36,816 bases of DNA from Eubacterium sp. (GTDB taxonomy: Bacteria; Bacillota; Clostridia; Oscillospirales; Acutalibacteraceae), in the NCBI GenBank assembly GCA_017458975.1, contig JAFSZK010000034.1, positions 1 through 36,816 of the forward strand. Direction: 5' to 3'. Position numbers and translations under genes: made by a program. The notes beneath the pieces are model-generated. The model searched no databases. It was not told the origin of the DNA and saw only the letters and a list, made by a program, of their open reading frames with translations. Shown in pieces: positions 5,320-35,478 of this stretch (positions are counted from its first letter, which is position 1; every line of letters starts with the position of its first letter).

Positions 5320-6480
5320 CTATTTGTTACCTTTAGCACGGTTGTGCGTTTTGCAAAGCATTTGGCAATTATCTATATCTGTCTTTCCACCTTTTGACCA
5401 AGCGGTTACATGGTCAGCATCCATCTCGCCAATTTGATAAATTCGTGTTTTATTATTGTTATTTGAAACTGCACATAAGGGACAGTTAGAGATACCTTTT
5501 TCTAAAGCTTCTTTGGTTTGGAGACTGTATTTTGCTTTTTTTATTGGTTCTTCAAACAATCTAACATTTAATAATTCTGTATTTTCGCAACCTCCAAGTA
5601 CATATTCCCATATGTTTTTCTTGTCTTTAACATAATAATCATTATATAATTCTTCAATCTTATTATTCAGTTCATTTATATCATAAGCGTTCGCGTGGTA
5701 TTTTTCATATAATTCGCCCCACTCTAAACCTTTCATTTCTTTTTTGTCGCTTTTGAATGTTCCACTTATCCAATCAATTACTGATGTAAAATAAGTTTCA
5801 AGCTCCGTAATATTAGTATCAAATCTGTGTTCTGACATATAACTATCAATACAGCCCTTTGACACCCAGTTGATAGCAGTTCTTAAAATATCTTGTCTAT
5901 TTATGCTACCATTAATATATTTAGTCCATATCATGGTTTTCGAGTTTTGAGTGTTAGAAAAAACCTCTTTTGCTTTTGTTACAAACGGTCCAGAGTATAT
6001 AGCATTAAGCAGTTCTTGGTCATTAAGCGGTAATCCTTTAATGTTTATGGTAGTAAACCAATTTTTGATTTCACTTTCCTTGCCTTTGCAAATATAAATG
6101 GTTAATGTTGTATTGTTAACCAAATCTTGAATATCAGACGGTAAACTTGAAAAGTTTTTCTCGGTTCCCTCATAAACATAGGGAAGCTTATTGGTAACAA
6201 ATCTTCCTATACTAGTGATTCTCTGCTGTCCGTCCAATACTTCGTATTTTCCGTCTTCATTTTCAACAAAATAGATTAGCCCAATAGGATATTTTTTTAT
6301 TATGCTATCAATAACATCGACATCCATTTTCTTTTCTGCATAAATATAGTTCCTTTGATATTCAGGCTGAATGACAAGCTTTCCATTCATTCCATATAAG
6401 CCTCTGTTTTCTAATGTGTTATAAACGAAGCCTTCACATAGTTTTTTAATTGTAACATCAGTACGTAACAAAGTTTCCAT
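5320..6480 (-). CDS. DUF262 (GmrS/ParB-like) plus HNH nuclease protein
   Basis: A 386-aa protein. The N-terminal DUF262 domain shows IQPEYQRNY (about 37-45) and DGQQR (83-87), the ParB/sulfiredoxin-like motif linked to nucleotide hydrolysis in GmrSD-type and SspE-type defence proteins. The last 54 residues are an HNH nuclease domain: CPLC (333-336), DADH with His357, Asn371, Cys376 and His379, a zinc-supported beta-beta-alpha-metal fold. The helical middle is unassigned. It starts 7 bp after the methyltransferase stop, with its GGAGAAGG ribosome binding site inside that gene's end, so translation is probably coupled. A restriction-like role is inferred from the domain pair and context. Its AT content is much higher than that of argS or the radical SAM gene. 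Confidence 0.85.
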
Positions 6481-6487
6481 ATTATAC

Positions 6488-7597
6488 CTACCTTCTCCTA
6501 ATCAAATACCTTCCAAAAGGACATTTATGAACACCGTTTTCGGTATATGAAATATCTGTTCTCCCGCGATAGTTCTTTTGAACGCCCAATTCTTTTGCAA
6601 GATTTCCAGAACCCAAACCGACGATTTCAAATTGTTCTGGACACCATTTTTCTAAAAACGAAGCGGCTGGAACTCCCATCAATCCATCATAATCGGACGG
6701 TATTGCATCTACATAGGGAACATCTATTCCATCAATGTTATCATAATGATTATAATAACCTCTTTCCGTTAAATCCTTATGTTTGCTATAGCGGAGGTTT
6801 TCTTCCATAGTCATTAATGATAGCGGCTGATGCAATTTTCCGTGTTCCATATTTGTAAACCAAGCCGCAGCAACATTTTTCATTTTTTTGCCATTTTCAA
6901 TTTTATCATAATTAGTGGGATGTACCGTTTCAAACCACATTCCACCTGACCAAGCAGAACGACCTGACCAAATTTTGCCAGCTCTTATATATGGGAAAAT
7001 TTCCTTGTAACCAGAACTACCTTTATTTCCAATTATTAAGAATTGCTTGTTTGCGTCAATAACCCATTTCATAAAATCAATATAAATAGAAAAGGGCGGA
7101 TTTGTACATATTATATCTGATTCATCTCTAAGCTTTGTAACTTCTTCAGACTGATAATCGCCATCACCACTTAAATAATCCCACTTCAAATCATTTATAT
7201 CAATTCTTTTATTACTGTTACGCTCAAGAATAAATATTTTACCTCGGCTTGCTGTAATATCAGGATTATAATTGGGTGAGTCTTTTTCTATTGATGTTAA
7301 ATAGTCACTTAAACTATATTGATATCCAAACTGTTTTGCCTTTTCATTTTTCGCATCAAGTGAACGGCTTGTACTTATTAGCTTCTTTAATCCTAATAAT
7401 TCAAAATTTTCAGCAAAGAATTTTGTAAAATTGCTCCATTCAGGGTCATCACAAGGCAACAGTATCGTTTTATCTTTAAACGCGTCTGGATTATATTCTA
7501 AATATGCATTTACTTCTAATTGTATATCCATATATTGAGTGTAAAACTCGTCATACTCTTCAATTTTTGCCTTATGTAATTTGTCAGTTTTTGCCAT
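6488..7597 (-). CDS. EcoRI-family adenine-specific DNA methyltransferase
   Basis: Predicted to transfer a methyl group from SAM to N6 of adenine in a specific DNA site. The 369 aa match the EcoRI_methylase family in overall layout: [12 protein letters not shown] (about 46-57) takes the place of the SAM-binding motif, and the catalytic TNPPFS motif (residues 165-170) follows IICTN. The later stretch with [17 protein letters not shown] and [10 protein letters not shown] is typical of the family. I start it at the ATG at 7597 because AGGAG sits 9 bp before it. A longer in-frame reading to 7654 would run through the terminator hairpin. It is cotranscribed with the DUF262-HNH gene. No standard restriction enzyme is nearby, so the HNH partner is the candidate nuclease. 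Confidence 0.88.
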
Positions 7598-7614
7598 TGA
7601 AATCACTCCTAATA

Positions 7615-7645
7615 AAATAAAAAAGCGCACAGCAGAGCCGTGCGC
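7615..7645 (-). terminator. Intrinsic terminator or attenuator just before the methyltransferase
   Basis: On the minus strand GCGCAC-GC pairs with GC-GTGCGC (7625-7645, one mismatch), followed by TTTTTT and more T-rich sequence (7615-7624). The methyltransferase AGGAG begins only a few bases later. An intrinsic terminator placed between a promoter and its own gene usually means attenuation or release of a separate small RNA. Confidence 0.7.
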
Positions 7646-7812
7646 AAAAAACACATAGCTCAGTGTGCTAAACTATCAAACTGAACGCCATTTGTCGTGA
7701 CATGTTGATTAAAGCCATGCGTTTTTATCAGGATGACAAAAACAGCATGCCACGACTTAGACACTATTATTCTTAAGCATAGTTTTTCATTATTCAATTT
7801 GATAGTTTAGCA
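7646..7812 (-). ncRNA. Candidate structured leader or small RNA of the methyltransferase/DUF262-HNH island
   Basis: Three nested stems are readable. P1 pairs 7793-7812 with 7666-7685 over 20 bp. P2 pairs 7746-7756 with 7694-7704 over 11 bp. P3 pairs 7734-7743 with 7721-7730 over 10 bp with a 3-nt UCC loop. Each stem has one mismatch on the plus strand, and in all three cases it becomes a G-U wobble in RNA transcribed from the minus strand. The matching promoter would start transcription at about 7811, the first base of P1. A T6 run at 7646-7651 could form the 3' end. CAUG of P2 can alternatively pair under P3 (7745-7749 with 7716-7720), so two folds compete. No known RNA family is recognised. 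Confidence 0.6.
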
Positions 7813-7817
7813 TCTTC

Positions 7818-7846
7818 ATTTTATCATATATTCTAATTAATATCAA
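7818..7846 (-). promoter_or_regulatory. Promoter of the structured RNA and methyltransferase operon
   Basis: On the minus strand TTGATA (7841-7846), a 17-bp spacer and TAAAAT (7818-7823) form a good sigma-A promoter. The predicted start at about 7811 coincides with the outer inverted repeat of the structured leader. Confidence 0.65.
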
Positions 7847-7935: not shown

Positions 7936-8778
7936 TTAAAAATTTGTATTAATGATTTTATTTATAACATCCTTGCCCGGAAAATCAAGATACAAAATAC
8001 CGTAGTATTTATTATTTTTAAGCTCATATTCGGTAAAGCATTTGTTAATTATATTCGCGTTCTGCCTCGGAAGGTGCAAGCCGCCGGCTGTTGAAAGGTA
8101 ATTAAGAATATACGTTTTTGAAAAAGCTGCTGCGCTTTCAAGAAGCGGCTTTACGCAAAGGCTCCATTTCTTTTTCGGCGAATAGGAATACCTGTCCTGA
8201 ATAAGAAAGCCCCCGCTTTTTGACTGAAGCAGCAGCGCCTTAGCTTCCCTTTTTCCCTGGTCAACCCATAAGGAAACGTCAATTCCGAGGGAGTCCTTTG
8301 CGTCAATACAACGACGAAGAAGTACTATTTTTCCTCTCGCCTGATTCAAGGTGGGCACGTCGGGCTCAAGATACCACGAACCCCTTTCAATATACCTGCT
8401 TTTCAGAATATCAATGCATTTCTGCTGTTCCTTTTCGCTGTCGTTTTTAAACTGTAAAACAACGGTTTCGCTTGGATTATTATTCAGAAATTCATTAAAA
8501 TCGGCTATTATTTCGCCAAGGTGCATTACGCTTTTATATTTTTCGTCGCTGTAAATATTTGCAAAGGAGTGAACAAGTACAAGCCTTTCCCCCTCGCTTT
8601 TTACGCGTAAATCAAAAACCCTTATTCCGCTTTCAAGCTGCTCTTTAATGCTCATATCCTGGCATCGTATAAGCGCGCCCTTAACAAACCTTGCCGCAGA
8701 ATTGTGAGTTGCGGGAAGATTAAGAGAAAAAAGGCTTTTTCCGCCGTCAATTTCATTTAGCCAGCGCTCAGTATTCAT
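7936..8778 (-). CDS. PI-PLC X-domain family phosphodiesterase-like protein
   Basis: A 280-aa protein of the bacterial phosphatidylinositol-specific phospholipase C type, a TIM-barrel that cleaves phosphodiester head groups. The first catalytic His is in LPATHNSAAR near residue 23, with Asn where the B. cereus enzyme has Asp. RVFDLRVK near 57 carries the Asp-Arg block, and the second His is in LVLVHSF near 70. Late hydrophobic strands such as GILYLDFPGK finish the barrel. No signal peptide or membrane segment is seen, so it is probably cytosolic, unlike secreted PI-PLCs. I start at the ATG at 8778 behind GGTGAT, because a TTG start at 8823 would lie upstream of its own -10 box. The substrate is not known. 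Confidence 0.75.
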   Translation of the reverse strand: MNTERWLNEIDGGKSLFSLNLPATHNSAARFVKGALIRCQDMSIKEQLESGIRVFDLRVKSEGERLVLVHSFANIYSDEKYKSVMHLGEIIADFNEFLNNNPSETVVLQFKNDSEKEQQKCIDILKSRYIERGSWYLEPDVPTLNQARGKIVLLRRCIDAKDSLGIDVSLWVDQGKREAKALLLQSKSGGFLIQDRYSYSPKKKWSLCVKPLLESAAAFSKTYILNYLSTAGGLHLPRQNANIINKCFTEYELKNNKYYGILYLDFPGKDVINKIINTNF

Positions 8779-8794
8779 ATAATCACCGAAAAAA

Positions 8795-23577: not shown

Positions 23578-24396
23578 ATGGACGAAACAAGAGAAATAGA
23601 CATAGACCTGAGAAAAATACTGTTTATGATGCGTAACAAGGTAATATATATAATCCTTGCTACATTTTTTGTAGGCGCGATTGCGGGACTTTACACCCAC
23701 TTCTTTATTGCTCCTACCTATACTGCAACAATCAGTATGGTCGTTTACAATAACCCCGACAGGGTAAGCGCGAGTCAGGGCGTATCGCAGGACGATATCA
23801 GCGCCCAGACGAATCTTGTAGGAACATATATGTTTATGCTTAAAAGCGATAAGGTTCTTGACAAGGTTGCCCAGGAGCTTAATCTCGGCTCGGGTTCACA
23901 GATTAAGGGTCTTATTTCAACAAGTCAGGAGGAGGGTACCTTTGTATTTACCACAACCGTATCCCATACCGACCCCGAAAAGGCGGCTAAGATTGCAAAC
24001 GCAATAGCTAAGATTGCCCCCGATGAAATGGCAAAAACAACAAGAGCGGGTGAAATTAACGTTATTGATACCGCAAAAACTCCGTCCTCACCCTCCGCCC
24101 CGAATATTAAAAAGAATATTTTAATCGGTGCGCTTGTAGGCTTTTTGGTTTCATTTGCAGGCTTCTTTGTATATGAAATATTTGATACAACGATTACTAA
24201 CTCAAACGACCTTGAACGTGAATTTGAATTCCCCGTTCTCGGTACCGTTCCGACGCTTGAGGTTGTTGAAAGAGAGGCTGATAACTCCGACAACGAGTTA
24301 CCGCCGCCCTCGTCAAATAATGACACTTTGGCACGGCCAAGCAGCGCTTTGCTTGAAAACATACAATCTATGAAGGAGGGTGCGAAAAATGACTAA
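23578..24396 (+). CDS. Wzz/CpsC-type polysaccharide chain-length regulator and kinase activator
   Basis: 272 aa. It has the two-helix Wzz topology: a short cytosolic start, membrane helix 1 at about 21-43, an extracytoplasmic domain (44-178) and membrane helix 2 at about 182-202 preceded by the Pro-rich SSPSAPNIKKN motif. A cytosolic tail of about 70 residues follows. In Gram-positive capsule systems this protein partners with the BY-kinase encoded next (CpsC-CpsD), activating it and setting polymer length. Here the two genes overlap by 8 bp, as expected for coupled translation. It is the first gene of the operon with its own promoter 45 bp upstream of the start. GGGAGG precedes the ATG. Confidence 0.9.
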   Translation: MDETREIDIDLRKILFMMRNKVIYIILATFFVGAIAGLYTHFFIAPTYTATISMVVYNNPDRVSASQGVSQDDISAQTNLVGTYMFMLKSDKVLDKVAQELNLGSGSQIKGLISTSQEEGTFVFTTTVSHTDPEKAAKIANAIAKIAPDEMAKTTRAGEINVIDTAKTPSSPSAPNIKKNILIGALVGFLVSFAGFFVYEIFDTTITNSNDLEREFEFPVLGTVPTLEVVEREADNSDNELPPPSSNNDTLARPSSALLENIQSMKEGAKND

Positions 24397-25156
24397 AAGA
24401 GAAAAAAGACGCCAGCTCGCAAGGTCATCGGGCTATACCAAAAACGACGCTAAAAGAATTCTTTGCCGCGATTCCTCCTTCCCTGTTAAGGAGGCATACA
24501 ACGCAATAAGAACAAACCTTCTCTTCCTCCAGCAGGGTGAAAAATGCCCGATATTTGTTATTACAAGCCCTACCGCAAATAACGGTAAAACAATTAATTC
24601 CGTTAATCTTGCGATAAGCTTTGCACAAATGGGTAAGAAGACGCTTCTTATTGACTCGGATATGAGAAACCCGACAATACACAGACTCTTTTCCATATCC
24701 GTTAAAAACGGTCTTTCGGAAATACTTGCGGGCCTTACCGATAATATCTCCGTTTCAAAAACGGACGTTGAAAACCTTTCGGTGCTTACCGCGGGTAAAA
24801 TCCCTCCGAACCCCACCGAGCTTCTTTCCTCGACAAGAATGGACAAGCTCCTTGAATTTGTAAAAGAGCATTACGACTGTGTATTCATTGATACTCCGCC
24901 TATTAATATCGTTACCGATTCAACCGTATTTGCAAGAAAGGTTACGGGTTATATTCTTATAATCAAAACCGATACTACAAATATTAACGACGTTAAAACG
25001 ACAATAGGTAATCTTGAGTCAATCGGCGGAAATATTCTCGGCTTTGTACTTAACGACGTTACAAGCGAGAAGAAAAAATACTACTCCTACTACAGGAGAT
25101 ACAATTATAATTACAAGTATTCTTATAATTATAATTACGATAAATACGAAAAATAA
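24389..25156 (+). CDS. CpsD/CapB-type bacterial tyrosine kinase
   Basis: A 255-aa cytosolic P-loop kinase that works with the preceding Wzz-like protein to control polysaccharide assembly. After the FPVKEAYNAIRTNLLF entry motif come Walker A SPTANNGKT (near 53-61), Walker A' LLIDSDMRNP and Walker B DCVFIDTPP. The tail contains 12 tyrosines in the last 25 residues, the usual autophosphorylation cluster, here unusually dense. The Walker A differs from the common PGEGKS/T version in having Asn-Asn before GKT. I start at the ATG at 24389 behind GGAGGG, rather than an in-frame GTG at 24380 that lies within the ribosome binding site. No CpsB-type phosphatase was found nearby. Confidence 0.9.
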   Translation: MTKREKRRQLARSSGYTKNDAKRILCRDSSFPVKEAYNAIRTNLLFLQQGEKCPIFVITSPTANNGKTINSVNLAISFAQMGKKTLLIDSDMRNPTIHRLFSISVKNGLSEILAGLTDNISVSKTDVENLSVLTAGKIPPNPTELLSSTRMDKLLEFVKEHYDCVFIDTPPINIVTDSTVFARKVTGYILIIKTDTTNINDVKTTIGNLESIGGNILGFVLNDVTSEKKKYYSYYRRYNYNYKYSYNYNYDKYEK

Positions 25157-25167
25157 CAGGTGATTAA

Positions 25168-26673
25168 ATGAACAGACGAACAAGAATGCAATTATTTTTT
25201 GAATTTATCATTGATATATTCTGTTTAATACTTGCAAATGCTTTTTCGATATGTTTATTCTACTTCATAATTCCGAAAATTCCCACATTCCCCGCCATTG
25301 AATGGATAAGACTTGAGGGAACTCTCTTTCTTGCATATCTTGTTATATTCTTCGGCTTTCACCGTAATATAAACACCCAGAACCGAAACCGAAAAAGTGA
25401 GGTCGCCGCTCTTGTAAGAAACGCAACGCTTATATTTGCGCTCTTTGCGGTACTGATTATTCTTTTAAAAAATCCCATTGTAGAATCGAGATATATGCTC
25501 TTTTCAACATATCTTACGTTCATCGGCTTTTCGGCTATAGGAAGATATTTTTTAAAAAGATATCTTACGGGCTTTTATAAAAACAGCAAGACGGCGTCAA
25601 GAGCAATAATCATTACAACAAGCGACAGGGCTGACAACTTTGTTAAAAGTATTAAAGACGACTGGTCGGTATATGTTACGGGAATCGTCCTTCTTGACAG
25701 ATACTGTCAGGACAACGTGTTCAAGTTTTCCGACCCGTTTATCAGAGAGCTTTCCCATCTTTCCCCATCGAATACCGAGGTAATGACTCTTCCCGGGGTA
25801 ATCCACGATATTCCCGTTCTTTCAACGGACGACGGCTTTATTGATATTATCCGCTCGTCTCCGACGGATGAGGTGTTCTTAAACCTTCCCTACACCGACG
25901 ACCTTGAAATTCAGGAAATAATTGAAGAGCTTGAGGATATGGGAATTACGGTACATATTAATATCCCGACCCTTGACGATATTCTTGACGAAAGTAAATT
26001 CGATAACATTAACTGTAAAATGCAGTACGGTTATCCCATGGCGTCCTTCGCTGCAAATCCGCCGCGTTTCGGCTATCTTTTTGCAAAACGCGCGTTTGAT
26101 TTACTTTTCGGAATAATCGGATGTATTCTCTCTGTTCCGGTAATTCTTATTACCGCTGTTCCCCTCCTTCACGAAAGCAAGGGACCGCTTATATTTAAAC
26201 AGCAGCGAGTAGGACTTAACGGAAGAGTGTTCAATATTTATAAGCTCCGCTCAATGTATGTTGACGCCGAGGAGAGAAAAAAAGAGCTGGTAAAAGAAAA
26301 CCAGATGGAAGGCTATATGTTCAAAATGGAAAACGACCCGAGAGTTACAAAGGTAGGAAGGGTTATAAGAAAGCTGAGCATAGACGAGCTGCCCCAGTTT
26401 TTCAACGTTGTCAAGGGCGATATGAGCCTTGTAGGAACAAGACCGCCTACAATAGACGAATTTGAAAAATACGAAAGCAGGCATAAAAGACGTCTTTCAA
26501 TGCGTCCCGGTATTACGGGTATGTGGCAGGTAAGCGGACGCTCCGAAATTCAGAGCTTTGAAGAGGTTGTTAAGCTTGACTGCGAATACATAGATAACTG
26601 CTCCGCGCTTCTTGATTTAAAGATTCTCTTTAAGACCGTCGGAGTTGTTCTGACCCACAAGGGCGCTCATTAA
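25168..26673 (+). CDS. Polyisoprenyl-phosphate phosphoglycosyltransferase (initiating sugar transferase)
   Basis: A 501-aa membrane enzyme that loads the first sugar-phosphate onto undecaprenyl phosphate. Four N-terminal membrane segments (about 8-140) are followed by a Rossmann-like CoA-binding-type domain (150-290), another membrane segment near 311-332, and the bacterial sugar transferase domain: FKQQRVGLNG (near 343), YKLRSM, LSIDELPQFFNV, MSLVGTRPP and MRPGITGMWQVSGRS. This is the WbaP/CpsE layout. Whether it transfers galactose-, glucose- or another sugar phosphate cannot be told from sequence. AGGTGA precedes the ATG, and it lies 11 bp after the kinase gene. Confidence 0.93.
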   Translation: MNRRTRMQLFFEFIIDIFCLILANAFSICLFYFIIPKIPTFPAIEWIRLEGTLFLAYLVIFFGFHRNINTQNRNRKSEVAALVRNATLIFALFAVLIILLKNPIVESRYMLFSTYLTFIGFSAIGRYFLKRYLTGFYKNSKTASRAIIITTSDRADNFVKSIKDDWSVYVTGIVLLDRYCQDNVFKFSDPFIRELSHLSPSNTEVMTLPGVIHDIPVLSTDDGFIDIIRSSPTDEVFLNLPYTDDLEIQEIIEELEDMGITVHINIPTLDDILDESKFDNINCKMQYGYPMASFAANPPRFGYLFAKRAFDLLFGIIGCILSVPVILITAVPLLHESKGPLIFKQQRVGLNGRVFNIYKLRSMYVDAEERKKELVKENQMEGYMFKMENDPRVTKVGRVIRKLSIDELPQFFNVVKGDMSLVGTRPPTIDEFEKYESRHKRRLSMRPGITGMWQVSGRSEIQSFEEVVKLDCEYIDNCSALLDLKILFKTVGVVLTHKGAH

Positions 26674-26683
26674 AGGTAATTAT

Positions 26684-27805
26684 ATGAAAATTGCAATGAT
26701 AGGTCACAAAAGAATACCCTCGCGTGAGGGCGGTATAGAAATCGTTGTGGGCGAGCTTTCAAAGCGTATGGTAAAGCTCGGCCACAGCGTTACTGCTTAT
26801 AACCGAAAGAGCCGACACATTGCAGGAAACGAATATAACGCAAAAAGAGAAAACGAGTACGAGGGAGTTAAGCTTAAATGGATTTACACTCCCGAATCGT
26901 CAAAGCTCAACGCAATCGTTTACAGCGCGTTTTCAACCTTACAAGCCGTATTATGCGGCTATGACGTGATTCATTTTCACGCCGAGGGTCCCGCCTCTAT
27001 GGTAAAGCTTGCAAAGCTTTTTAAAAAGAGATGTATCGTTACAATTCACGGACTCGACTGGCAGAGAGCTAAATGGGGCGGCTTTGCAACAAAATTTCTT
27101 CTTTTCGGAGAAAGAACCGCGGCTGAAAACGCCGATGAAATAATTGTACTGAGCGAAAACGTAAAACAGTATTTTAAAGAAAAGTATAACCGAAACACGG
27201 TTTTTATTCCAAACGGAATTGAAGCTCCGACTCCTAAGGAAGCCCGGATAATAAAAGAAAAGTATGCTCTTGATAAGGACGGCTATATCCTTTTTCTCGG
27301 AAGGCTCGTTCCCGAAAAGGGCGTTCATTATCTTATAAATGCTTTTAAAGAAACCGAATCGGACAAAAAGCTTGTAATTGCAGGCGGCGCGAGCCACACA
27401 AGCGATTACGAAGCCGAAATAAGAGCGCTCGCCCGAAACGACGAAAGAATTGTTTTTACGGGATTCATTCAGGGAGAGGAGCTCGTCGAGCTTTATTCAA
27501 ACGCATATATCTACGTCCTGCCGAGCGACCTTGAGGGTATGCCGATAAGCCTTCTTGAGGCTATGAGTTACGGAAATTGCTGTTTAACCTCCGATATTGA
27601 GGAATGCACGGAGGTCTGTGAGGATAAAGCCGAATACTTTGAAAAGGGAAACGAGAGCGAACTTAAAGCCGCGCTTGAATTTCTTTTAAATAATCCCGAT
27701 AAGGTCAGCGAGTATAAAAACAACGCCGCCGGCTTTATCTTAAATAAATACGACTGGGATAATGTTGTAAACAAAACGCTTGAACTTTATAAAAATAACG
27801 GGTAA
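26684..27805 (+). CDS. Family 4 glycosyltransferase with DUF1972-type N-terminus
   Basis: A 373-aa cytosolic GT-B glycosyltransferase, probably the second-sugar enzyme of the repeat unit because it directly follows the initiating transferase. The N-terminal domain begins KIAMIGHKRIPSREGGIE, the DUF1972 hallmark seen in Cps rhamnosyl- and glucosyltransferases, and TIHGLDWQRAKWGG follows near 119-132. The C-terminal nucleotide-sugar domain has LFLGRLVPEKGVHYLI and a DLEGMPISLLEAMSYG stretch (the E-x7-E motif). The donor sugar is unknown. GGTAAT precedes the ATG. A lone C-terminal helix ends NKYDWDNVVNKTLELY, typical of complete GT4 proteins. Confidence 0.9.
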   Translation: MKIAMIGHKRIPSREGGIEIVVGELSKRMVKLGHSVTAYNRKSRHIAGNEYNAKRENEYEGVKLKWIYTPESSKLNAIVYSAFSTLQAVLCGYDVIHFHAEGPASMVKLAKLFKKRCIVTIHGLDWQRAKWGGFATKFLLFGERTAAENADEIIVLSENVKQYFKEKYNRNTVFIPNGIEAPTPKEARIIKEKYALDKDGYILFLGRLVPEKGVHYLINAFKETESDKKLVIAGGASHTSDYEAEIRALARNDERIVFTGFIQGEELVELYSNAYIYVLPSDLEGMPISLLEAMSYGNCCLTSDIEECTEVCEDKAEYFEKGNESELKAALEFLLNNPDKVSEYKNNAAGFILNKYDWDNVVNKTLELYKNNG

Positions 27806-27809
27806 TAAA

Positions 27810-29000
27810 ATGAAAATTCTTATGGTAAACAAGTTTCTCTACCCCAACGGCGGTTCGGAAACATATATTTTTAAGCTCGGCGATTGCCTTAAGGCGCTCG
27901 GTCACGAGGTTGAATACTTCGGTATGGAGCATGAGGGAAACTGCGTTTCAAACAGCCTTGGGCTGTATACGGGCGATATGGATTTTCATACCGCAAGCAA
28001 GCTTACCCAGCTTTCATATACGCTTAAAACCGTATACTCTCCGGAAGCTAAAAAGAAAATGAGGCTTCTTTTAGAGAGCTTCGCGCCCGACGTCGTTCAC
28101 CTTAATAATTTTAACTACCAGCTTACTCCGAGCGTTATATACGCCGTTAAGGATTATGAGAAGAAAACGGGAAAAAGGGTAAAAATTATTTACACCGCTC
28201 ACGATTATCAGCTTGTATGTCCTAATCATATGATGCTTGATTCTTTTGGCAATATATGTGAGAAATGTGCAAAAGGCGACTATATGAGCTGTTTTAAGAA
28301 CAGCTGCGTTCACTCTTCCAAGGCAAAAAGTCTTATCGGCAGTATAGAGGCAAGTCTTTATAAGGCGCTTAAAGCCTATAAGCATATTGACGCCGTCATC
28401 TGTCCGAGTGAGTTTATGAAAACAAAGCTTGACCTTAATCCCGCTTTAAAGGGCAAAACGCTCACTTTACATAATTTTATCGACAAAGCCCCCGTCGGCA
28501 AGACCGAAAAAGAGGATTACGTTCTTTATTTCGGACGTTACTCCAAGGAAAAGGGCATTAAAAACATACTTGAAGCCAAGGGTATTAATTTCATCTGCGC
28601 AGGCTCGGGAGAGCTTGAGAAGGAAATTGAAAAAGCCGGTATTAAAAACGTCGGCTTTAAAACGGGCAGGGAGCTTGAGGAGCTTATTTCAAAGGCGGTT
28701 TGTTCCGTTTATCCGAGCACATGGTATGAAAACTGTCCGTTTTCGGTAATGGAGAGCATATCTCTCGGGACTCCTGTTATAGGCGCCGATATAGGCGGTA
28801 TTCCCGAGCTCATTGAAAACGGCAAAACGGGCTTCCTTTTTAAAAGCGGGAACACCGCGGATATGGAGGAAAAGATAAAAGCCCTCACCGAAAACAGCTC
28901 TCTTGCAAACGAAATGAGCAGGAACTGTCTTGATTATAAATTTGACACTGCTGAGGCTTATACAAAAAAGCTTCTTAAAATATATGAAACCGAAGGTTGA
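27810..29000 (+). CDS. Family 4 glycosyltransferase with Cys-rich insert
   Basis: 396 aa, GT-B fold. MKILMVNKFLYPNGGSETYI opens the acceptor domain. AHDYQLVCPNHMML (about 138-150) is followed by an insert with several cysteines (CEKCAKGDYMSCFKNSC, about 160-176) that may bind zinc or stabilise a loop. This insert recurs in some capsule GT4 enzymes. The C-terminal donor domain has YFGRYSKEKGI, ENCPFSVMESISLG and ADIGGIPELI. I use the ATG at 27810, 4 bp after the previous stop, behind GGGTAA. The upstream in-frame ATG at 27780 would overlap the previous gene and lacks a site. Its sugar specificity is unknown. Confidence 0.9.
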   Translation: MKILMVNKFLYPNGGSETYIFKLGDCLKALGHEVEYFGMEHEGNCVSNSLGLYTGDMDFHTASKLTQLSYTLKTVYSPEAKKKMRLLLESFAPDVVHLNNFNYQLTPSVIYAVKDYEKKTGKRVKIIYTAHDYQLVCPNHMMLDSFGNICEKCAKGDYMSCFKNSCVHSSKAKSLIGSIEASLYKALKAYKHIDAVICPSEFMKTKLDLNPALKGKTLTLHNFIDKAPVGKTEKEDYVLYFGRYSKEKGIKNILEAKGINFICAGSGELEKEIEKAGIKNVGFKTGRELEELISKAVCSVYPSTWYENCPFSVMESISLGTPVIGADIGGIPELIENGKTGFLFKSGNTADMEEKIKALTENSSLANEMSRNCLDYKFDTAEAYTKKLLKIYETEG

Positions 29001-29003
29001 TTT

Positions 29004-30173
29004 ATGAAAAAGCTTAACGGAACAGTAATAGTTACATACCGCTGCAACGCGCGCTGCACTATGTGTAACCGTTACAAGGCGCCCTCAAAACCCGAAGAGG
29101 AAATATCTCTTGAAACAATTAAAAAGCTTCCCGAAATGTATTTTACCAACATTACGGGGGGCGAGCCGTTTATTCGCACCGATTTAAAGGAAATCGTGCG
29201 CGAGCTTGATAAAAAGAGCGACAGAATTGTAATTTCAACAAACGGCTTTTTTACCGACAGAATTATTGATTTATGTAAGGAATTTCCAAACGTCGGCATA
29301 CGCATTTCGATAGAAGGTCTTGAGGAAACGAACAACAAAATCCGCGGACTTGAGGACGGCTACAACAAGGGCTACGGCACTCTTAAAAAGCTTGTTGAAA
29401 TGGGCCACGGCGACGTCGGCTTCGGTATGACCGTTCAGGACGCCAACGCAAAGGATTTAGTTCCTCTTTATAAAATCAGCGACGAAATGAATATGGAATT
29501 TGCAACCGCGTCGCTTCATAATTCCTTCTATTTTGTTGAAGCAAAAAACGTCATTAAAGACAGAGCTATGGTTGCAAAGGAATTTGAGAAGCTCATTAAC
29601 GAGCTGTTAAAATCAAATTCGCCTAAAAAGTGGTTTAGAGCATATTTCAACCACGGACTTATTAATTATATTTACGGACAGAAAAGACTACTCCCGTGCG
29701 ATATGGCTTTTGACACCTTCTTTATTGACCCTTACGGCGACGTTATGCCCTGTAACGGCACTAAGGAAAAAGAAGTTATGGGTAATCTTAATACTCAGTC
29801 ATGGGACGAACTGTGGAACAGCGAGCAGGCTGAAGCGGTAAGACGAAAGGTAAGAGCCTGCGACCGTCAATGCTGGATGATAGGCTCGGTATCCCCTGCT
29901 ATGCATAAATACATCTGGAAGCCTGCTGCATGGGTGGTAAAGCATAAATTCTTAAAATATTTCAGCGATAATAAATACTCGATGTTTGAAAACAAAATCT
30001 GCCGTGACCTTCGCGACGGAAAGGTTACAAAGGAGGAGCTTGACAGGCTTTCTACCTGTGACTTTAACGCGGTAATTAACGACGGACTCTCCGAAGAGTC
30101 AAAATCCGCCCTTGAAGGCACCACGGGCGAGGAAATTGTTGACGCTGACATTAAAGCACAGCTGGGTGAATAA
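29004..30173 (+). CDS. Radical SAM/SPASM protein inside the polysaccharide operon
   Basis: A 389-aa iron-sulfur enzyme. CNARCTMC gives the radical SAM cluster ligands Cys14, Cys18 and Cys21. The NITGGEPFIRTD block near 49-60 and VISTNGFFTD near 75-84 complete the SAM-binding barrel, and IRISIEGLEETN is a typical later strand. SPASM-type cysteines appear in LLPCDMAFDTF, GDVMPCNGT and RACDRQCWMIG. It is 3 bp after a glycosyltransferase and overlaps the next by 1 bp, so it belongs to the operon. Its reaction is unknown. Because it sits between glycosyltransferases it may modify a sugar or a lipid-linked intermediate, or attach or modify an aminoacyl or lipid group. No peptide precursor is evident. 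Confidence 0.85.
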   Translation: MKKLNGTVIVTYRCNARCTMCNRYKAPSKPEEEISLETIKKLPEMYFTNITGGEPFIRTDLKEIVRELDKKSDRIVISTNGFFTDRIIDLCKEFPNVGIRISIEGLEETNNKIRGLEDGYNKGYGTLKKLVEMGHGDVGFGMTVQDANAKDLVPLYKISDEMNMEFATASLHNSFYFVEAKNVIKDRAMVAKEFEKLINELLKSNSPKKWFRAYFNHGLINYIYGQKRLLPCDMAFDTFFIDPYGDVMPCNGTKEKEVMGNLNTQSWDELWNSEQAEAVRRKVRACDRQCWMIGSVSPAMHKYIWKPAAWVVKHKFLKYFSDNKYSMFENKICRDLRDGKVTKEELDRLSTCDFNAVINDGLSEESKSALEGTTGEEIVDADIKAQLGE

Positions 30174-30907
30174 TGAAGATTTTATTTGTAAATCCGATTA
30201 TTTATACATCGGAAACGTCAAAAATTAAAAAAGCGCCCTCAATTAAGGACACGATGAGTTATGATTTATGTCTTGCGTTTAAGGATATGGGTCATGACAT
30301 AACTCTTTTTGCAGGCGAGCCCTTTAAGCCCGAGCAAAAAGAGGAATATCCCTTTAACGTTGTCTGGGCAAAATGCGCGTTTCCGAAGGTATGCAAGCCA
30401 AACGCTCTGCCGCTGTGCCCCGAGCTTGTAAGCCTTGTTAAGGACGAAAGCTTTAACCTTGTTATTTCAAGCGAAATCTTTTCTCTCAATTCCTTAATGC
30501 TTGCACTTTTTTCAAGGGAAAGCCTTATAGTATGGCACGAGCTTGCAAAGCATAATAATATTATGCATAAAATCCCGTCGAGGCTATGGTATAACACCGT
30601 TGCAAAAACCGCCTTCAGAGGCGTTCCCGTGATAGCAAGAAGCAAGGAAGCAAAAGAGTTTATTTCCCGTTTTTGTAATAATGTGTATGACAGAATTATT
30701 GACCACGGCGTAAATCTCGATAAGTTTGAGGCTTGCAAAAAAAGGAAAAATACTTTGCCGTCGTATCCCAGCTTATTGAAAGAAAACAGATTGACAAAAT
30801 CATTGATAAGTTTTCGGCATTCTCAAAAGCCAATCCCGAATACAAGCTTTACATTTTCGGCGAGGGCGATAAGGAAAGCGGACTCAAAGAGCAGGTTAAA
30901 GACTTAA
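30173..30907 (+). pseudogene. 5' part of a frameshifted family 4 glycosyltransferase
   Basis: Codons 1 to about 188 encode a convincing GT4 acceptor domain, opening MKILFVNPIIYTSE and reaching FCNNVYDRIIDHGVNLDKFEAC. Beyond the A7 run at 30737-30743 the frame reads non-homologous, basic, Ser/Pro-rich sequence and stops at 30907. The expected continuation, the GT4 donor domain, is in the -1 frame. One extra A in the run would join both parts without loss (…EACKKKEKYFAVVSQL…). I therefore treat this as the N-terminal half of a gene of 30173-32463 that is broken, slipped or mis-sequenced. It starts 1 bp inside the previous stop (TAATG). Confidence 0.75.
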
Positions 30908-32463
30908 AGCTTGAAGAAAAGGTCGTTTTCTTCGGCAAGGCATCCCACGACGAGCTCAAAAGCTATCTCTCAAAAGCGAGCGCGCTTCTTGTTTATACAA
31001 GAAAGGATAATAATATGGTCTCAATCGTTGAGTCCATTGCCTGCGCAACCCCCGTTGTTACAACCTCCGTTCCGTATAACGCGTCTTATATAAAAGAAAA
31101 CGGACTCGGAATCGTTAATGACGCTTGGAACGAGAGCGACCTTGAAAGGATTGTATCCGACAAGAAGTACATTGAGAATTGCCTAAATTACAGAAATAAC
31201 ATCTCAACAAAGGGAAAGGTTGAAGCTTTTTTAAGCGTAAAAAACGCAAAGAACATACTTCTCTCCTCCTACAGCGTTAACCCGTTTCACGGAAGCGAGG
31301 ACGGTATAGGCTGGAACTGGACGCTTCAGCTTGCAAAGCATTTTAACGCCGCGGACGACAGAATTTTCCTTGTTACAAAAAAGGTAAACGAAGCCGATAC
31401 AAGACGGGGTATTGAGGAAAACGGGCTTAAAAACGTTAAGCTTACAATAGTTGATACTCCCGACTGGCTCAACTGGTACCGCGAGCACCGCTCAGCGTTC
31501 CACCACCTTTACTATATGCTCTGGCAAAGATATGCATACGCCCGGGCAAAAAGGTCAAAAATCGACTTTGATATTATTCACCATATAACAATGGTGGATT
31601 TCAGAATACCGGGTCATATGCACAAATTTAAAAAGCCCGAAACAATCTTCGGACCCGTCGGAGGCGGACAGTCGACTCCCGAGGCGTTAAAAAGCTATGA
31701 AGCCTCAAGGGCGGTTGAAAAATTCCGCGAAGCTATAAACAAGTCAAGAGCCGTGCTCCCCTCTTATAAAAAGGCAATGAAAAACTTTAACCGCGTTTTT
31801 GCAATCAACTCGGAAACGCAGGAATATATGAGCTCCGCCATGGGCAAAAGGTGTGAAAAGCTCTGCGAATTAGCGCTTGCCGATGAATTCAGGGCTCTTG
31901 AAATACAAAAAAAGAAAAACGCGAGCGTGAAAATTCTTTACCTCGGACGCCTTATTGAAAAGAAAGGCATAATGCTTCTTCTTGACGTTATTAAGGCTAT
32001 GCCCACGGACGGGAACTTCACCCTTGAAATATACGGCGGCGGTCCGCTTGAATCGCGAATTTCAGAATACATTAAAGATAATTCGCTTGAAAACAGGGTT
32101 AAGCTCTGCGGCGAGGTTGAACACAGCGAGGTATCAAACGTATATTCAACCGCCGACATCTTCGTTATGCCCTCTCTCAGAGAAACAAGCGGAAACGTGC
32201 TTGTTGAGGCAATGGCTCACTCGCTTCCCGTTGTTGCGCTTGATATGAGCGTTGCAAGCGATTTTAAAGAACACGGCTGCGGCGAATTTATTAACGTTAA
32301 GCAAAGCAGGGAAGCTATAATAAACGAATTTTCCGACAAGCTCACAAAGCTTATCGACGACCCCGGGCTCAGAACTCAGGAAGGTGAAAAAGGTTATGCT
32401 TTTGTAAACGAAGAGCTTTCGTGGGAAAAGAAATTTGAAAAGGTTTATGACAATCTTTATTAA
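30733..32463 (+). CDS. GT4 donor domain fused to a second complete GT4 glycosyltransferase (3' part)
   Basis: As read it is 576 aa from a TTG start with no ribosome binding site, so it is probably not translated alone. Residues 1-160 are the C-terminal donor domain of the broken upstream gene: KYFAVVSQLIERKQIDKIID, LYIFGEGDKESGL, VSIVESIACATPVV. From about residue 168 a second GT4 begins with KNILLSSYSVNPFHGSEDGI and WNWTLQL, continues with IIHHITMVDFRIPG and FGPVGGGQSTPEA, and ends with LYLGRLIEKKGIMLL, EIYGGGPLESR and SLRETSGNVLVEAMAHSLP. No start codon separates the two, so the intact gene would be a 763-aa double glycosyltransferase adding two sugars. Specificities are unknown. Confidence 0.75.
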   Translation: MQKKEKYFAVVSQLIERKQIDKIIDKFSAFSKANPEYKLYIFGEGDKESGLKEQVKDLKLEEKVVFFGKASHDELKSYLSKASALLVYTRKDNNMVSIVESIACATPVVTTSVPYNASYIKENGLGIVNDAWNESDLERIVSDKKYIENCLNYRNNISTKGKVEAFLSVKNAKNILLSSYSVNPFHGSEDGIGWNWTLQLAKHFNAADDRIFLVTKKVNEADTRRGIEENGLKNVKLTIVDTPDWLNWYREHRSAFHHLYYMLWQRYAYARAKRSKIDFDIIHHITMVDFRIPGHMHKFKKPETIFGPVGGGQSTPEALKSYEASRAVEKFREAINKSRAVLPSYKKAMKNFNRVFAINSETQEYMSSAMGKRCEKLCELALADEFRALEIQKKKNASVKILYLGRLIEKKGIMLLLDVIKAMPTDGNFTLEIYGGGPLESRISEYIKDNSLENRVKLCGEVEHSEVSNVYSTADIFVMPSLRETSGNVLVEAMAHSLPVVALDMSVASDFKEHGCGEFINVKQSREAIINEFSDKLTKLIDDPGLRTQEGEKGYAFVNEELSWEKKFEKVYDNLY

Positions 32464-32474
32464 CGGTGAAAACT

Positions 32475-33383
32475 ATGTCAAGAGCAAAAAAGCTGTTTGA
32501 AAAAAGCAGAAAGAACCACTCGCTGGTTTACGACACAATTTCATACGGTATGTTTAAGCTCGGCTACGGCGATATTAACCTTGCAGGGGCTGTATCCCGC
32601 TATAAGGTTTTTACTGCGCTTGAAAAGAAATACAAAGGCAAAATCGGAAAAACCGATTTTAAGCGCTACGAGGGCGACGCTGCGCCGAAGGTATGGGTTT
32701 GCTGGCTTCAGGGCTTTGAAAACGCGCCCGAGCTTGTAAATAACTGCGTTGCGTCAATTAAGTATCATATTAAAGATAAAGAAATCGTTTTTATTGACGG
32801 CAATAATTTTTCCGAGTTTTGCGATATTCCCGATTACATAATTGACAAATGGAAAAAAGGAATTATCGGTTATGCTCATTTTGCGGATATTATTCGTCTT
32901 GCGCTTCTGACTCAGAGAGGCGGACTCTGGATTGACGCTACGGTTTACCTTACGGGCGCGCTTCCCGAATACGTTACCGAAGGCGATTTCTTCGTTTTGC
33001 GCGACGGCTTCTTTAACTGTGATTTAATCAATATGGGAAACTGGCTTATATTCTCAAAGCCTAATTATATTCTTTTAAACGAAACGCTCAAATTACTCCT
33101 TGATTACTGGAAAGAATACGACTATACAAAGCACTACTTTATTTTCCAGATGTTTTTCAGGATGGTAAGCGACTACTACGAGGACGAGTGGAACTCCGTT
33201 CCCTATTTCAGCCAGTCCGACCAACATATTTTTTCATTCGAGTTTTTTAACGAATACGACGAACATAGATTTAATCAGCTTAAAGAGCTTACTCCCATAC
33301 ATAAGCTTACGACTAAAACCGAAGGCGTAAGCTTTAAAGAAAACAGCTACTATTCCAAGCTTGATACACTTTATAAAAACTGA
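32475..33383 (+). CDS. Capsular polysaccharide synthesis family glycosyltransferase (Caps_synth/GT32-like)
   Basis: 302 aa. It matches the Caps_synth type: PKVWVCWLQGFENAPELV (about 71-88) followed by KEIVFIDGNNFSEF, then IGYAHFADIIRLALLTQRGGLWIDATV (near 132-158), where Asp-Ile-Ile-Arg and the GGLWIDA DXD-like motif bind the sugar nucleotide and metal. There is no membrane segment, so it acts at the inner face of the membrane. AACGGTGA precedes the ATG at 32475. An in-frame GTG at 32466 overlaps that site and is less likely. The donor and linkage are unknown. Confidence 0.85.
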   Translation: MSRAKKLFEKSRKNHSLVYDTISYGMFKLGYGDINLAGAVSRYKVFTALEKKYKGKIGKTDFKRYEGDAAPKVWVCWLQGFENAPELVNNCVASIKYHIKDKEIVFIDGNNFSEFCDIPDYIIDKWKKGIIGYAHFADIIRLALLTQRGGLWIDATVYLTGALPEYVTEGDFFVLRDGFFNCDLINMGNWLIFSKPNYILLNETLKLLLDYWKEYDYTKHYFIFQMFFRMVSDYYEDEWNSVPYFSQSDQHIFSFEFFNEYDEHRFNQLKELTPIHKLTTKTEGVSFKENSYYSKLDTLYKN

Positions 33384-33397
33384 CGGGCGGTAAATTA

Positions 33398-34195
33398 ATG
33401 AAAAAAGAACTTACGTCAAAGGAGCTTCAGAAGGTCTGTACGGAGCTTTTAAAGAAATTTGACGAAATCTGCAAAGAAAACAGCTTAAAATACTCCGCTG
33501 CGGGAGGTACAATGCTCGGCGCGGTACGCCACGGAGGCTTCATCCCGTGGGACGACGACGTTGACGTTAATATGCCGCGTGAGGACTACGAAAAGCTCCT
33601 GAAGCTTCAGTATGAGGACGAGCAGTATAAAATACTCAACTACCGCTATATCGACAATTACTATCACTCGTTTACAAAAATGATTGATAAAACGACTGAA
33701 ATTGACGAGCCTTTGCGCGGTGAAAAAAATATGGGAGTATATATTGATATATTCCCCGTTGATTATGTCGGCGATTATGAAACCGAGGCACCTAAGGTTG
33801 TTAAAAAGGCATGGAAAAACAGCAATTTCTGGCAACACCTCGGCTCGGACGTAAAGTATCACAGAGCCTTTACCCCGAAATATCTTGCAAAGCTCATTTT
33901 CAGAGGCGTGATTTATCCGTTCAGAAAAAAGCTTTTGTATCATTTTGATACAATGTTTACGAATATACCGAAAAGCGAATACTGCGCCAATCTTCAGCTC
34001 GGCACCTACGGTATGGGGGAGTGCTTTAAAAGCGAGCTGTGGGAGGATATGATTTATCTTCCCTTTGAGGACATCGAGATTTGCGCCTTCAGAGATTACG
34101 ATTCCTATCTGAGCAGTCTTTTCGGCGATTATATGACCCCTCCGCCTGAGGATAAAAGAGAGTCTACTCATACCTTTACGGCATACAAAAAATAA
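33398..34195 (+). CDS. LicD-family nucleotidyl/phosphotransferase
   Basis: 265 aa of the LicD type, which moves a phosphorylated alcohol (phosphocholine in the founding member; other groups in relatives) from a CDP carrier to a sugar in surface glycans. The hallmark is YSAAGGTMLGAVRHGGFIPWDDDVDV near 28-53: the nucleotidyltransferase-like GG-x7-HGG followed by the Asp triad that binds metal. IDIFPVDYVGD near 112 and a late LGTYGMGE are also typical. GGCGGTAA precedes the ATG. No CDP-choline synthesis genes (licA, licC, tarI-like) are in the window, so the transferred group cannot be called phosphocholine. Confidence 0.9.
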   Translation: MKKELTSKELQKVCTELLKKFDEICKENSLKYSAAGGTMLGAVRHGGFIPWDDDVDVNMPREDYEKLLKLQYEDEQYKILNYRYIDNYYHSFTKMIDKTTEIDEPLRGEKNMGVYIDIFPVDYVGDYETEAPKVVKKAWKNSNFWQHLGSDVKYHRAFTPKYLAKLIFRGVIYPFRKKLLYHFDTMFTNIPKSEYCANLQLGTYGMGECFKSELWEDMIYLPFEDIEICAFRDYDSYLSSLFGDYMTPPPEDKRESTHTFTAYKK

Positions 34196-34210
34196 ACCTG
34201 AGGAAAACAA

Positions 34211-35473
34211 ATGGAACAAACTATACCGGTAACAAATAAAAATGCTACGCCTGCCACTAAGGTTTATCCTAAGAGCATCATCGCTGCCCTTGCGCTTCTC
34301 GGCGAGCTTGTAATTATCATATTCAAGCCCGGCGGCCAGTACGATGAGGCTTTGGCTGTTGCGAGCACCGTGCTTGTTATTACGTTTATCGCAACCGGCA
34401 AAACAACAAAATATGACCAGAATACCATTTTGCTTCTTGCAATTATTGCCTCTATAGGTATTTTAGGTAACCTTGTTTACGATATAAACAAATCGTATTT
34501 TTCAGTCATGGTAGATATTCTGACCCAGATTAAGCCCTTCGTAATTTTCTTTGCCCTAAGGTATTTTTTAACTACAAAGGAACGAAAAACGGTTATTGAT
34601 TACCTTACGCCTATTGCAAAGCTGTTTATGATTGCGGCATTTATATTCTGCGTTCTTAATCAATTTAAATCGTCAACAGCTCCCGGCGGCTTCAGATACG
34701 GTATAAGAATCTTTCAGTTTTTCTATATATTTAACCATTATTATATCGCTTCCGCGCTTTTCTTCTTCGGCATAATTGTATGTAATAACAGAATTAATGA
34801 AAAGCTGAAAAGGTTTTATATTATAATCGGATGTATAGCAATTATCGGCGCGCTTAAATCCCTTGCCATAATTTCCGTAGGAACGTTCGTCTTCCTTATG
34901 CTTTACTATAAAAAATATGAGAGAATTACCTTTAAGGTAATTATTCCCCTTTTGCTTTTAATTGTTTTGTTGAGCCGCTTCCAGATTAACGCGTATATAT
35001 TGAATACAACCTCTCCGAGACGAATATTCATCGACTACGCAATTAAAAACGCTAACGAGCATTTCCCGCTCGGCTCGGGCTTCGGAACCTTCGGCTCGGC
35101 TGAGGCGGCAAAGCATTACTCTGCGCTGTATATAAAATACCATTTTGAGCGGTTCTGGGGTATGTCACAGGGAGATAAAAAATTCCTTCACGATAATTAT
35201 TGGCAAACTATTCTCGGCCAGTTCGGATGGATAGGCTTCCCGTTCTTTGTATACTTCTATTACAGGTTATTCAAGACCTCCTACGACCCGAACAGTAAAT
35301 CTTATGAGAGAGCAATATGTAACGGTATATTCCTTGGTATGATGGTGTTTGCGCTCGGCTCCGCCTCTATTACAAGCGACCCCGGAGTAATATGCTTCGC
35401 CGCGCTTGCGCTCTTCAGTGAGCCCGAGGAAAAATTCGGTAAAAACAATAAACGGATAAGGATAAAATTTTAG
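34211..35473 (+). CDS. Wzy-like O-antigen/capsule polymerase
   Basis: A 420-aa polytopic membrane protein with about ten hydrophobic segments, beginning near residue 23 and ending near 400. The largest loop lies around 260-340 and carries the motif SGFGTFGSAEA followed by HDNYWQTILGQFGWIG, the arrangement seen in Wzy polymerases and WaaL-type ligases. It most likely joins undecaprenyl-linked repeat units on the outside of the membrane. The short basic C-terminus (NNKRIRIK) is cytosolic. GAGGAAA precedes the ATG. No flippase (Wzx) lies within the window, so one must be encoded elsewhere for this polymerase to have a substrate. Confidence 0.8.
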   Translation: MEQTIPVTNKNATPATKVYPKSIIAALALLGELVIIIFKPGGQYDEALAVASTVLVITFIATGKTTKYDQNTILLLAIIASIGILGNLVYDINKSYFSVMVDILTQIKPFVIFFALRYFLTTKERKTVIDYLTPIAKLFMIAAFIFCVLNQFKSSTAPGGFRYGIRIFQFFYIFNHYYIASALFFFGIIVCNNRINEKLKRFYIIIGCIAIIGALKSLAIISVGTFVFLMLYYKKYERITFKVIIPLLLLIVLLSRFQINAYILNTTSPRRIFIDYAIKNANEHFPLGSGFGTFGSAEAAKHYSALYIKYHFERFWGMSQGDKKFLHDNYWQTILGQFGWIGFPFFVYFYYRLFKTSYDPNSKSYERAICNGIFLGMMVFALGSASITSDPGVICFAALALFSEPEEKFGKNNKRIRIKF

Positions 35474-35478
35474 ATACT

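Follow-up and report, generated by a model that had tools for sequence, protein, structure and literature searches.

A leader RNA on the minus strand of the analysed DNA (in the following "the window", the whole stretch of 36,816 nucleotides) probably acts as a promoter-proximal two-state transcription attenuator in front of a methyltransferase gene. It would represent a new RNA family that works like the expression platform of a riboswitch. The members of this family share a promoter, the stems P1, P2 and P3, a strand termed T and an intrinsic terminator. The 3' half of T is similar to the P3 5' arm, such that it can replace this arm on the P3 3' arm and continue pairing into the joining strand J. 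Alternatively, T can form a helix with the 5' terminator arm. The positions of all elements in the window are listed in Table 1.

Table 1. Elements of the attenuator RNA in the window and the genes behind it.
Feature	Position	Strand	Remarks
Promoter	7818..7846	-	-35 TTGATA (7841-7846), 17-nt spacer, extended -10 TGATAAAAT (hexamer 7818-7823, TAAAAT)
Attenuator RNA	7614..7812	-	first base of P1 to end of U-rich run
P1 5' strand	7793..7812	-	outer-stem arm
Additional small hairpin in the P1-P2 interval	7764..7782	-	predicted fold
P2 5' strand	7746..7756	-	fold; own-partner fit across members
P3 5' strand	7735..7743	-	holds GUUUUU, competitor of T
P3 3' strand	7721..7729	-	fold
P3 3' arm and joining strand J (AAAAACGCAUGGCUU)	7712..7726	-	putative OFF-state partner of T; co-variation with T
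P2 3' strand	7694..7704	-	fold
P1 3' strand	7666..7685	-	outer-stem arm
Strand T (GAGCUAUGUGUUUUU)	7647..7661	-	can pair with P3/J or, alternatively, the 5' terminator arm
Terminator 5' arm segment pairing with T (antiterminator)	7635..7644	-	9 of 10 pairs in the window copy, counted by eye
Intrinsic terminator hairpin	7625..7645	-	terminator scan; kept in members
Terminator U-rich run	7614..7624	-	sequence
Shine-Dalgarno region (UUAGGAGUG)	7604..7612	-	directly 3' of the U-run
EcoRI-type adenine methyltransferase (PF13651)	6488..7597	-	first gene behind the RNA; E 1.5e-94
GmrSD_N (DUF262) + HNH protein	5320..6480	-	second gene of the operon

An earlier note on this DNA had described three nested stems, a preference of the fold for the minus strand and a promoter with a 17-nt spacing, all of which were recovered. 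For the minus-strand RNA from 7646 to 7812 a folding energy of -57.2 kcal/mol (z -7.1) was obtained compared to -43.0 kcal/mol (z -5.0) for the plus strand, and for both strands none of 200 shuffled sequences gave an equal value. P1 is a 20 nt inverted repeat with 95% complementarity. After P1 follow a short linker, T, the terminator with its U-run, the Shine-Dalgarno (SD) region and the ATG of the methyltransferase (7597-7595). The note had also let the RNA be followed by a T6 run and then by a clear intrinsic terminator. The terminator was confirmed, whereas the T6 run (7646-7651) is not the end of the RNA: it forms the 3' end of the conserved strand T. Promoter-like sites are common near the leader (5 found versus 2.6 in shuffles), such that the comparative evidence for the promoter (see below) weighs more than the site in the window. 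Judged from the sequences, the folded RNA is real and its transcribed sense is the minus strand. We regard the feature as being beyond chance because it is a member of a family with compensatory changes.

The distribution of the RNA was obtained in several steps. A DNA search in 300 genomes of the window's family returned 22 genomes with matches, most of the matching places covering only T and the terminator. From 21 loci compared side by side, 19 shared the layout, while L010 had a similar terminator only and L006 was a shortened form lacking P2 and P3. The latter (L006:1502-1606, minus strand, about 105 nt) keeps P1, the linker, T and the terminator and, as read by eye, precedes a gene for a small XRE-type regulator. 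A covariance model (R1) built from 18 loci with 173 positions, leaving out L003 and L006, matched 114 of the 300 genomes of the family, 139 of 394 genomes of the order (under 20 different family labels) and 1 of 398 in the phylum sample, which was the genome of the window itself. The family and order samples overlap. Since only few candidates were scored per genome (2 in the DNA search, 9 in the family scan, 7 in the order and phylum scans), copy numbers are lower bounds and a genome without a match is not proven to lack the RNA. Many of the sampled genomes were fragmented. In the own genome 8 copies were found at E < 1e-10, 7 of which were recovered by the order scan. The window copy matched the model at 7615-7809 with 104.6 bits (E 1.0e-16); its extra hairpin between P1 and P2 is largely specific to this copy, the other aligned members being mostly gapped there.

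For detailed analysis we used 184 members at 173 loci, after removal of 12 opposite-strand echo matches and with identical sequences counted once. These comprise the best-scoring of the listed matches, the loci of the first DNA search and the own genome rather than all matches. One comparison was left with 151 members after five had been dropped, L057 and L006 for want of a recognisable J and L077, L163 and L113 for want of a U-run; another was left with 178 after L167 had been dropped. A promoter-like site scoring at least 9/12 was located upstream of 133 of the 184 members, compared to 11 of 176 in a control region. For 121 of these 133 members it occurred at one fixed distance of 5 nt from the start of the model. 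For the window copy the computed distance is 8 nt, as the model match starts 3 nt inside P1, and the distance to the first base of P1 is 5 nt.

Compensatory stem changes, for which the earlier note had proposed an examination of homologues, were found. In 29 members that had not been used for model building, P1, P3 and the terminator together had 97.7% standard pairs, and 15 of the 28 pairs were changed on both sides. The number of cells with such two-sided changes was 41 compared to 9.2 in shuffles (0/500), for an alignment that was fitted to the tested structure of these three helices. Taken singly, P1 and the terminator consisted of standard pairs throughout (100%), with two-sided changes at 6 of 9 and 4 of 9 pairs, respectively; for P3 the share of standard pairs was 93.4%. 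In the 151-member set the stem arms strongly preferred their own partners over permuted ones, with z -36 for P1 and z -48 for P2 (0/1000 each) and z -7.4 for P3. RNAalifold applied to an alignment made by sequence predicted P3 and the terminator only; there, the named P1 was paired in 141 of 162 cells.

We then compared the two competing pairings of T, neither of which was part of the covariance model. For the T-J duplex the mean energy within the same member was -15.1 kcal/mol compared to -11.95 kcal/mol for permuted partners, and none of 5000 permutations was as favourable (151 members). The same result of 0/5000 was obtained for 35 members of less than 70% identity as well as for 15 members thinned by another measure. 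For 5 members 135 of 5000 permutations were as good, i.e. the signal became weaker under stricter thinning. In the 29-member alignment 20 T-J cells were changed on both sides compared to 6.5 in shuffles (0/500). The excess was seen in cells, in the percentage paired and in the covariation score. Counted by pairs changed on both sides (3 versus 2.4; 230/500) or by pair types (9 versus 9.2; 395/500), these 29 members did not exceed the shuffles. Clear compensation was seen at two T-J columns, one with U-A in 14, C-G in 10 and U-G in 5 members, the other with G-C in 20, A-U in 8 and G-U in 1. The counted pairs at the end of the duplex (columns 78 and 79) were broken in 9 and 7 of the 29 members. 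At the two positions where T changes together with J, the terminator arm carries U and G in all 29 members, which can pair with either letter of T.

For the pairing of T with the terminator arm the energies were -12.9 kcal/mol for own and -11.0 kcal/mol for permuted partners (0/5000; 151 members). Again 0/5000 was obtained for the 35 members below 70% identity, followed by 36/5000 for 15 members and 117/5000 for 5 members; 27 members from the loci of the 29-member alignment gave 20/5000. Over 11 columns of this alignment 95.5% of the cells were paired, a value that was reached in 13 of 500 shuffles. Neither two-sided changes (3 cells versus 2.5; 248/500) nor the covariation score (184/500) of the antiterminator were in excess in the 29 members.

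As a control, J against the terminator arm gave no signal (904/1000; 2493/5000). When 18-nt windows were moved in 6-nt steps around J, T fitted the window of its own member best only at and around J; along the terminator it did so only on the 5' side, with one 3' window at z -1.9. Reversed-sequence controls also departed from the permutations (J: z -4.0, 0/1000; terminator arm: z -2.3, 9/1000), indicating that a part of the permutation signal is due to composition or relatedness and is not specific. In an array of four tandem copies (L065) three copies fitted their own J best, while the fourth preferred the J of another copy (-15.8 versus -15.5). Altogether, the comparison of the sequences supports the T-J pairing strongly and the T-terminator pairing less strongly. 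The earlier note had considered a switch in which a CAUG motif pairs in two exclusive ways. The possibility of a switch is supported, with T rather than CAUG as the exchanged strand.

Two further recurrent elements were found. An unpaired AAUA beside P1 was present in 72% of the 184 members, whereas shuffles gave 31%. The linker that precedes T was also recurrent, its commonest form occurring in 31 of 156 members read. While the comparison supports an expression platform, the recurrence of AAUA and linker does not prove an aptamer.

From these data a mechanism can be proposed in which transcription probably starts at P1. In the ON state P3 would keep its own 3' arm, and the free T would bind the 5' terminator arm to form the antiterminator. 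RNA polymerase would then read into the gene, which typically lies 10-40 nt downstream. In the OFF state T would take the 3' arm of P3 together with J, the terminator hairpin would form and transcription would stop. The calculated energies of the window copy are -10.7 kcal/mol for P3, -18.2 kcal/mol for T-J, -13.0 kcal/mol for the antiterminator and -16.2 kcal/mol for the terminator; the corresponding medians of the members are -7.3, -15.2, -11.3 and -15.4 kcal/mol. The summed energies, which ignore pseudoknot penalties, favour the OFF state, such that the default would probably be OFF and a signal would switch the RNA ON. Both the ON/OFF assignment of the two states and the default are inferred. 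The signal would act by stabilising P3 or by keeping J from T. The most likely candidates are a small molecule and an RNA-binding protein, and a switch driven by temperature or kinetics is possible. For the window this would mean that the attenuator sets the expression of a type II restriction-modification pair, as which the two genes behind it are annotated: the GmrSD_N + HNH protein matches the PADLOC model of a type II restriction enzyme (E 8.6e-81).

An intrinsic terminator between the promoter and a start codon, one of the features by which an attenuator can be recognised, is found in the window and in 104 of the 184 members. In these 104 the U-run is followed within 40 nt by an SD motif and start codon, compared to 0 of 184 in a divergent and 3 of 175 in an upstream control; the remaining 80 of the 184 members do not follow this rule. 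Another feature, an antiterminator pairing that excludes the terminator, has the permutation support given above. The attenuator that the earlier note had offered as one option is supported by a start codon directly behind the terminator and by a conserved alternative antiterminator helix.

The same note had offered, as another option, a stand-alone small RNA, i.e. a trans-acting RNA family whose members each possess their own promoter and terminator, the adjoining gene being incidental. We consider this unlikely, at least for most members. While a promoter-like site and a strong terminator would fit a stand-alone RNA as well, the frequent SD motif and start codon so close behind the terminator would not be expected, and the conserved antiterminator would have no evident use. 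In its favour, several copies per genome occur, and tandem arrangements of two or four units were seen at 9 of 173 loci. In the L065 array (L065:766-1737, plus strand) each of the four units has a terminator and, read by eye, a promoter-like site. The last unit leads into a PIN-domain (PIN7) gene, while the upstream units are followed by another promoter-like site and no gene. Only short RNAs would arise from these upstream units, which a simple attenuator does not explain, and they may act in trans. Several copies per genome as well as tandem copies also occur for riboswitches.

Inverted repeats may also merely mimic a structured RNA if the element is mobile or repetitive, being MITE-like or an IS-derived "mobile attenuator". 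The 20-bp terminal inverted repeat and the unrelated genes downstream are in line with such an origin. Naville and Gautheret described mobile attenuators as related, IS-derived terminators immediately before unrelated genes (PMC2965389). In comparison with that description, the RNA reported here is a structured RNA of about 160-200 nt that has a promoter of its own and alternative helices that co-vary. In the own genome only one other partial DNA match was found (83% over 48 nt) and no near-identical copies, for which reason a dispersed repeat was rejected. The arms moreover differ between the copies and yet stay paired by compensatory change, and the promoter keeps a fixed distance. A mobile element is therefore quite improbable. 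Still less probable is a leader-peptide attenuator under ribosome control: it would share the attenuator layout, but an SD-like motif with a start codon was present before T in only 27 of the 184 leaders in the stretch scanned. A 6S-like RNA, also suggested in the earlier note, can practically be dismissed. 6S RNA (RF00013) resembles the present RNA as a long rod with internal loops and of similar length (about 190 nt); however, the own genome carries a separate 6S match (RF00013, 54.6 bits, over the cut-off) on another contig (C23), and the attenuator family is multi-copy with a terminator and a gene behind it.

The attenuator, which we favour over these alternatives, was not restricted to methyltransferase genes. 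A search for EcoRI_methylase gave 39 places in 32 genomes of the family sample, of which 30 were fetched. The RNA was present at 7 of these 30 loci including the window. A leader specific for the methyltransferase was therefore rejected, as 23 of the 30 loci had no RNA match; at two distant homologues of the methyltransferase (L022 and L023) no RNA match was found either. In the terms of the earlier note, which had named homologous islands without the RNA as a refutation and had considered an RNA working together with the island, this result speaks against the tie to the island and not against the RNA. A partnership with the island is too narrow, as the RNA precedes many unrelated genes. The methylase is one target among many.

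A census with Pfam, PADLOC and PHROG covered the proteins encoded at most 135 nt downstream, 144 of 145 with a 47-aa ORF at L167 left out, each protein being cut to at most 330 aa. Among the 144 were 17 BspA-type LRR, 8 CHAP, 6 HTH_3, 5 EcoRI_methylase and 5 double zinc ribbon proteins. A hydrophobic N-terminus was seen in 59 of 103 close downstream proteins compared to 12 of 43 upstream control genes. The eight copies in the own genome precede genes for a CHAP-dockerin protein, an MmeI-type restriction-methyltransferase, an FRG-domain protein (with an uncertain start codon), a SHOCT protein, a protein with weak zinc-ribbon matches below the cut-off, two proteins without Pfam match and the EcoRI-type methylase of the window. 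The restriction-methyltransferase and the FRG-domain protein, at L057 and L061, are defence-like.

Based on this gene set one may tentatively go one step further, to an idea that we hold possible while giving it somewhat less than an even chance: an order-wide orphan class of riboswitch-like RNAs, in which one shared signal would turn on scattered accessory genes via a pseudoknotted strand exchange, forming an RNA-based surface and defence regulon. With the same reservation, its set would include BspA-type surface proteins, CHAP hydrolases, lipoproteins, zinc-ribbon proteins, XRE regulators and restriction-modification systems.

The view of the earlier note that no known family is involved holds for Rfam 15. 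At the gathering score there was no match at the window RNA or at 20 member loci. With E up to 5 the window stretch gave 7 sub-threshold matches only, among them one to ncS54 (26.4 bits against a cut-off of 43) that covers linker, T and terminator; 20 further member loci searched with E up to 1 had no match overlapping the RNA. The family has in common with the terminating platforms of riboswitches that one strand is shared by two exclusive helices and that an intrinsic terminator lies directly before the gene. It differs from them in lacking an Rfam match or a known ligand, in having accessory rather than metabolic targets, and in a common strand that would pair into an internal hairpin across P1/P2, corresponding to a pseudoknot topology. 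Fremin and Bhatt reported 3161 candidate RNA motifs from human microbiomes, 508 of them within 25 bp upstream of genes, and mention 15 candidates before HTH_XRE genes (PMC8040213). The passages of that article used for comparison do not describe the attenuator family, and an overlap with one of the 3161 motifs is possible. No description of the RNA was found in the abstracts and passages of the literature that were searched, including passages of PMC11109978, PMC8040213, PMC2965389, PMC8632094 and PMC6429828. Attenuation by mutually exclusive helices is a known mechanism; what looks new is the RNA family, together with the set of genes behind it.

A structured RNA without match in Rfam 15 is present in about one third of the sampled genomes of the order, often in multiple copies. 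It marks accessory genes that are possibly co-regulated and raises the question whether a single signal activates surface and defence genes jointly, and which signal this is. With T at its centre, it also provides a concrete switch that can be tested.

Relatives of the RNA were also looked for in viral sequences. No stretch of the viral contigs matched the methyltransferase query, and the RNA pattern had 0 matches there, which is weak evidence given that an exact pattern was used. Among 50,697 phage records 2 contained a relative, both being unannotated faecal scaffolds labelled "Bacteriophage sp." (MT835845 and MT837627). According to the open reading frames these relatives (L225:2076-2235 and L226:2501-2658) precede lipoprotein-like and zinc-ribbon genes. 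Some flanking frames look bacterial, such that the scaffolds may be host DNA.

Several other features were observed close to the RNA or elsewhere in the window. Near two members a match to Gut-1 RNA (RF01706) was found, over the cut-off at L002:1080-1152 and below it at L186:2813-2886. In the window a gene for a PI-PLC-X domain protein (7936-8784, minus strand) ends upstream of the attenuator RNA, and a second terminator-like hairpin lies on the same strand (7890-7863). Further along, a gene run of exopolysaccharide type extends over 23578-36519 on the plus strand. As named by reading the translations, it includes chain-length and tyrosine-kinase-like proteins, a sugar transferase and glycosyltransferases.
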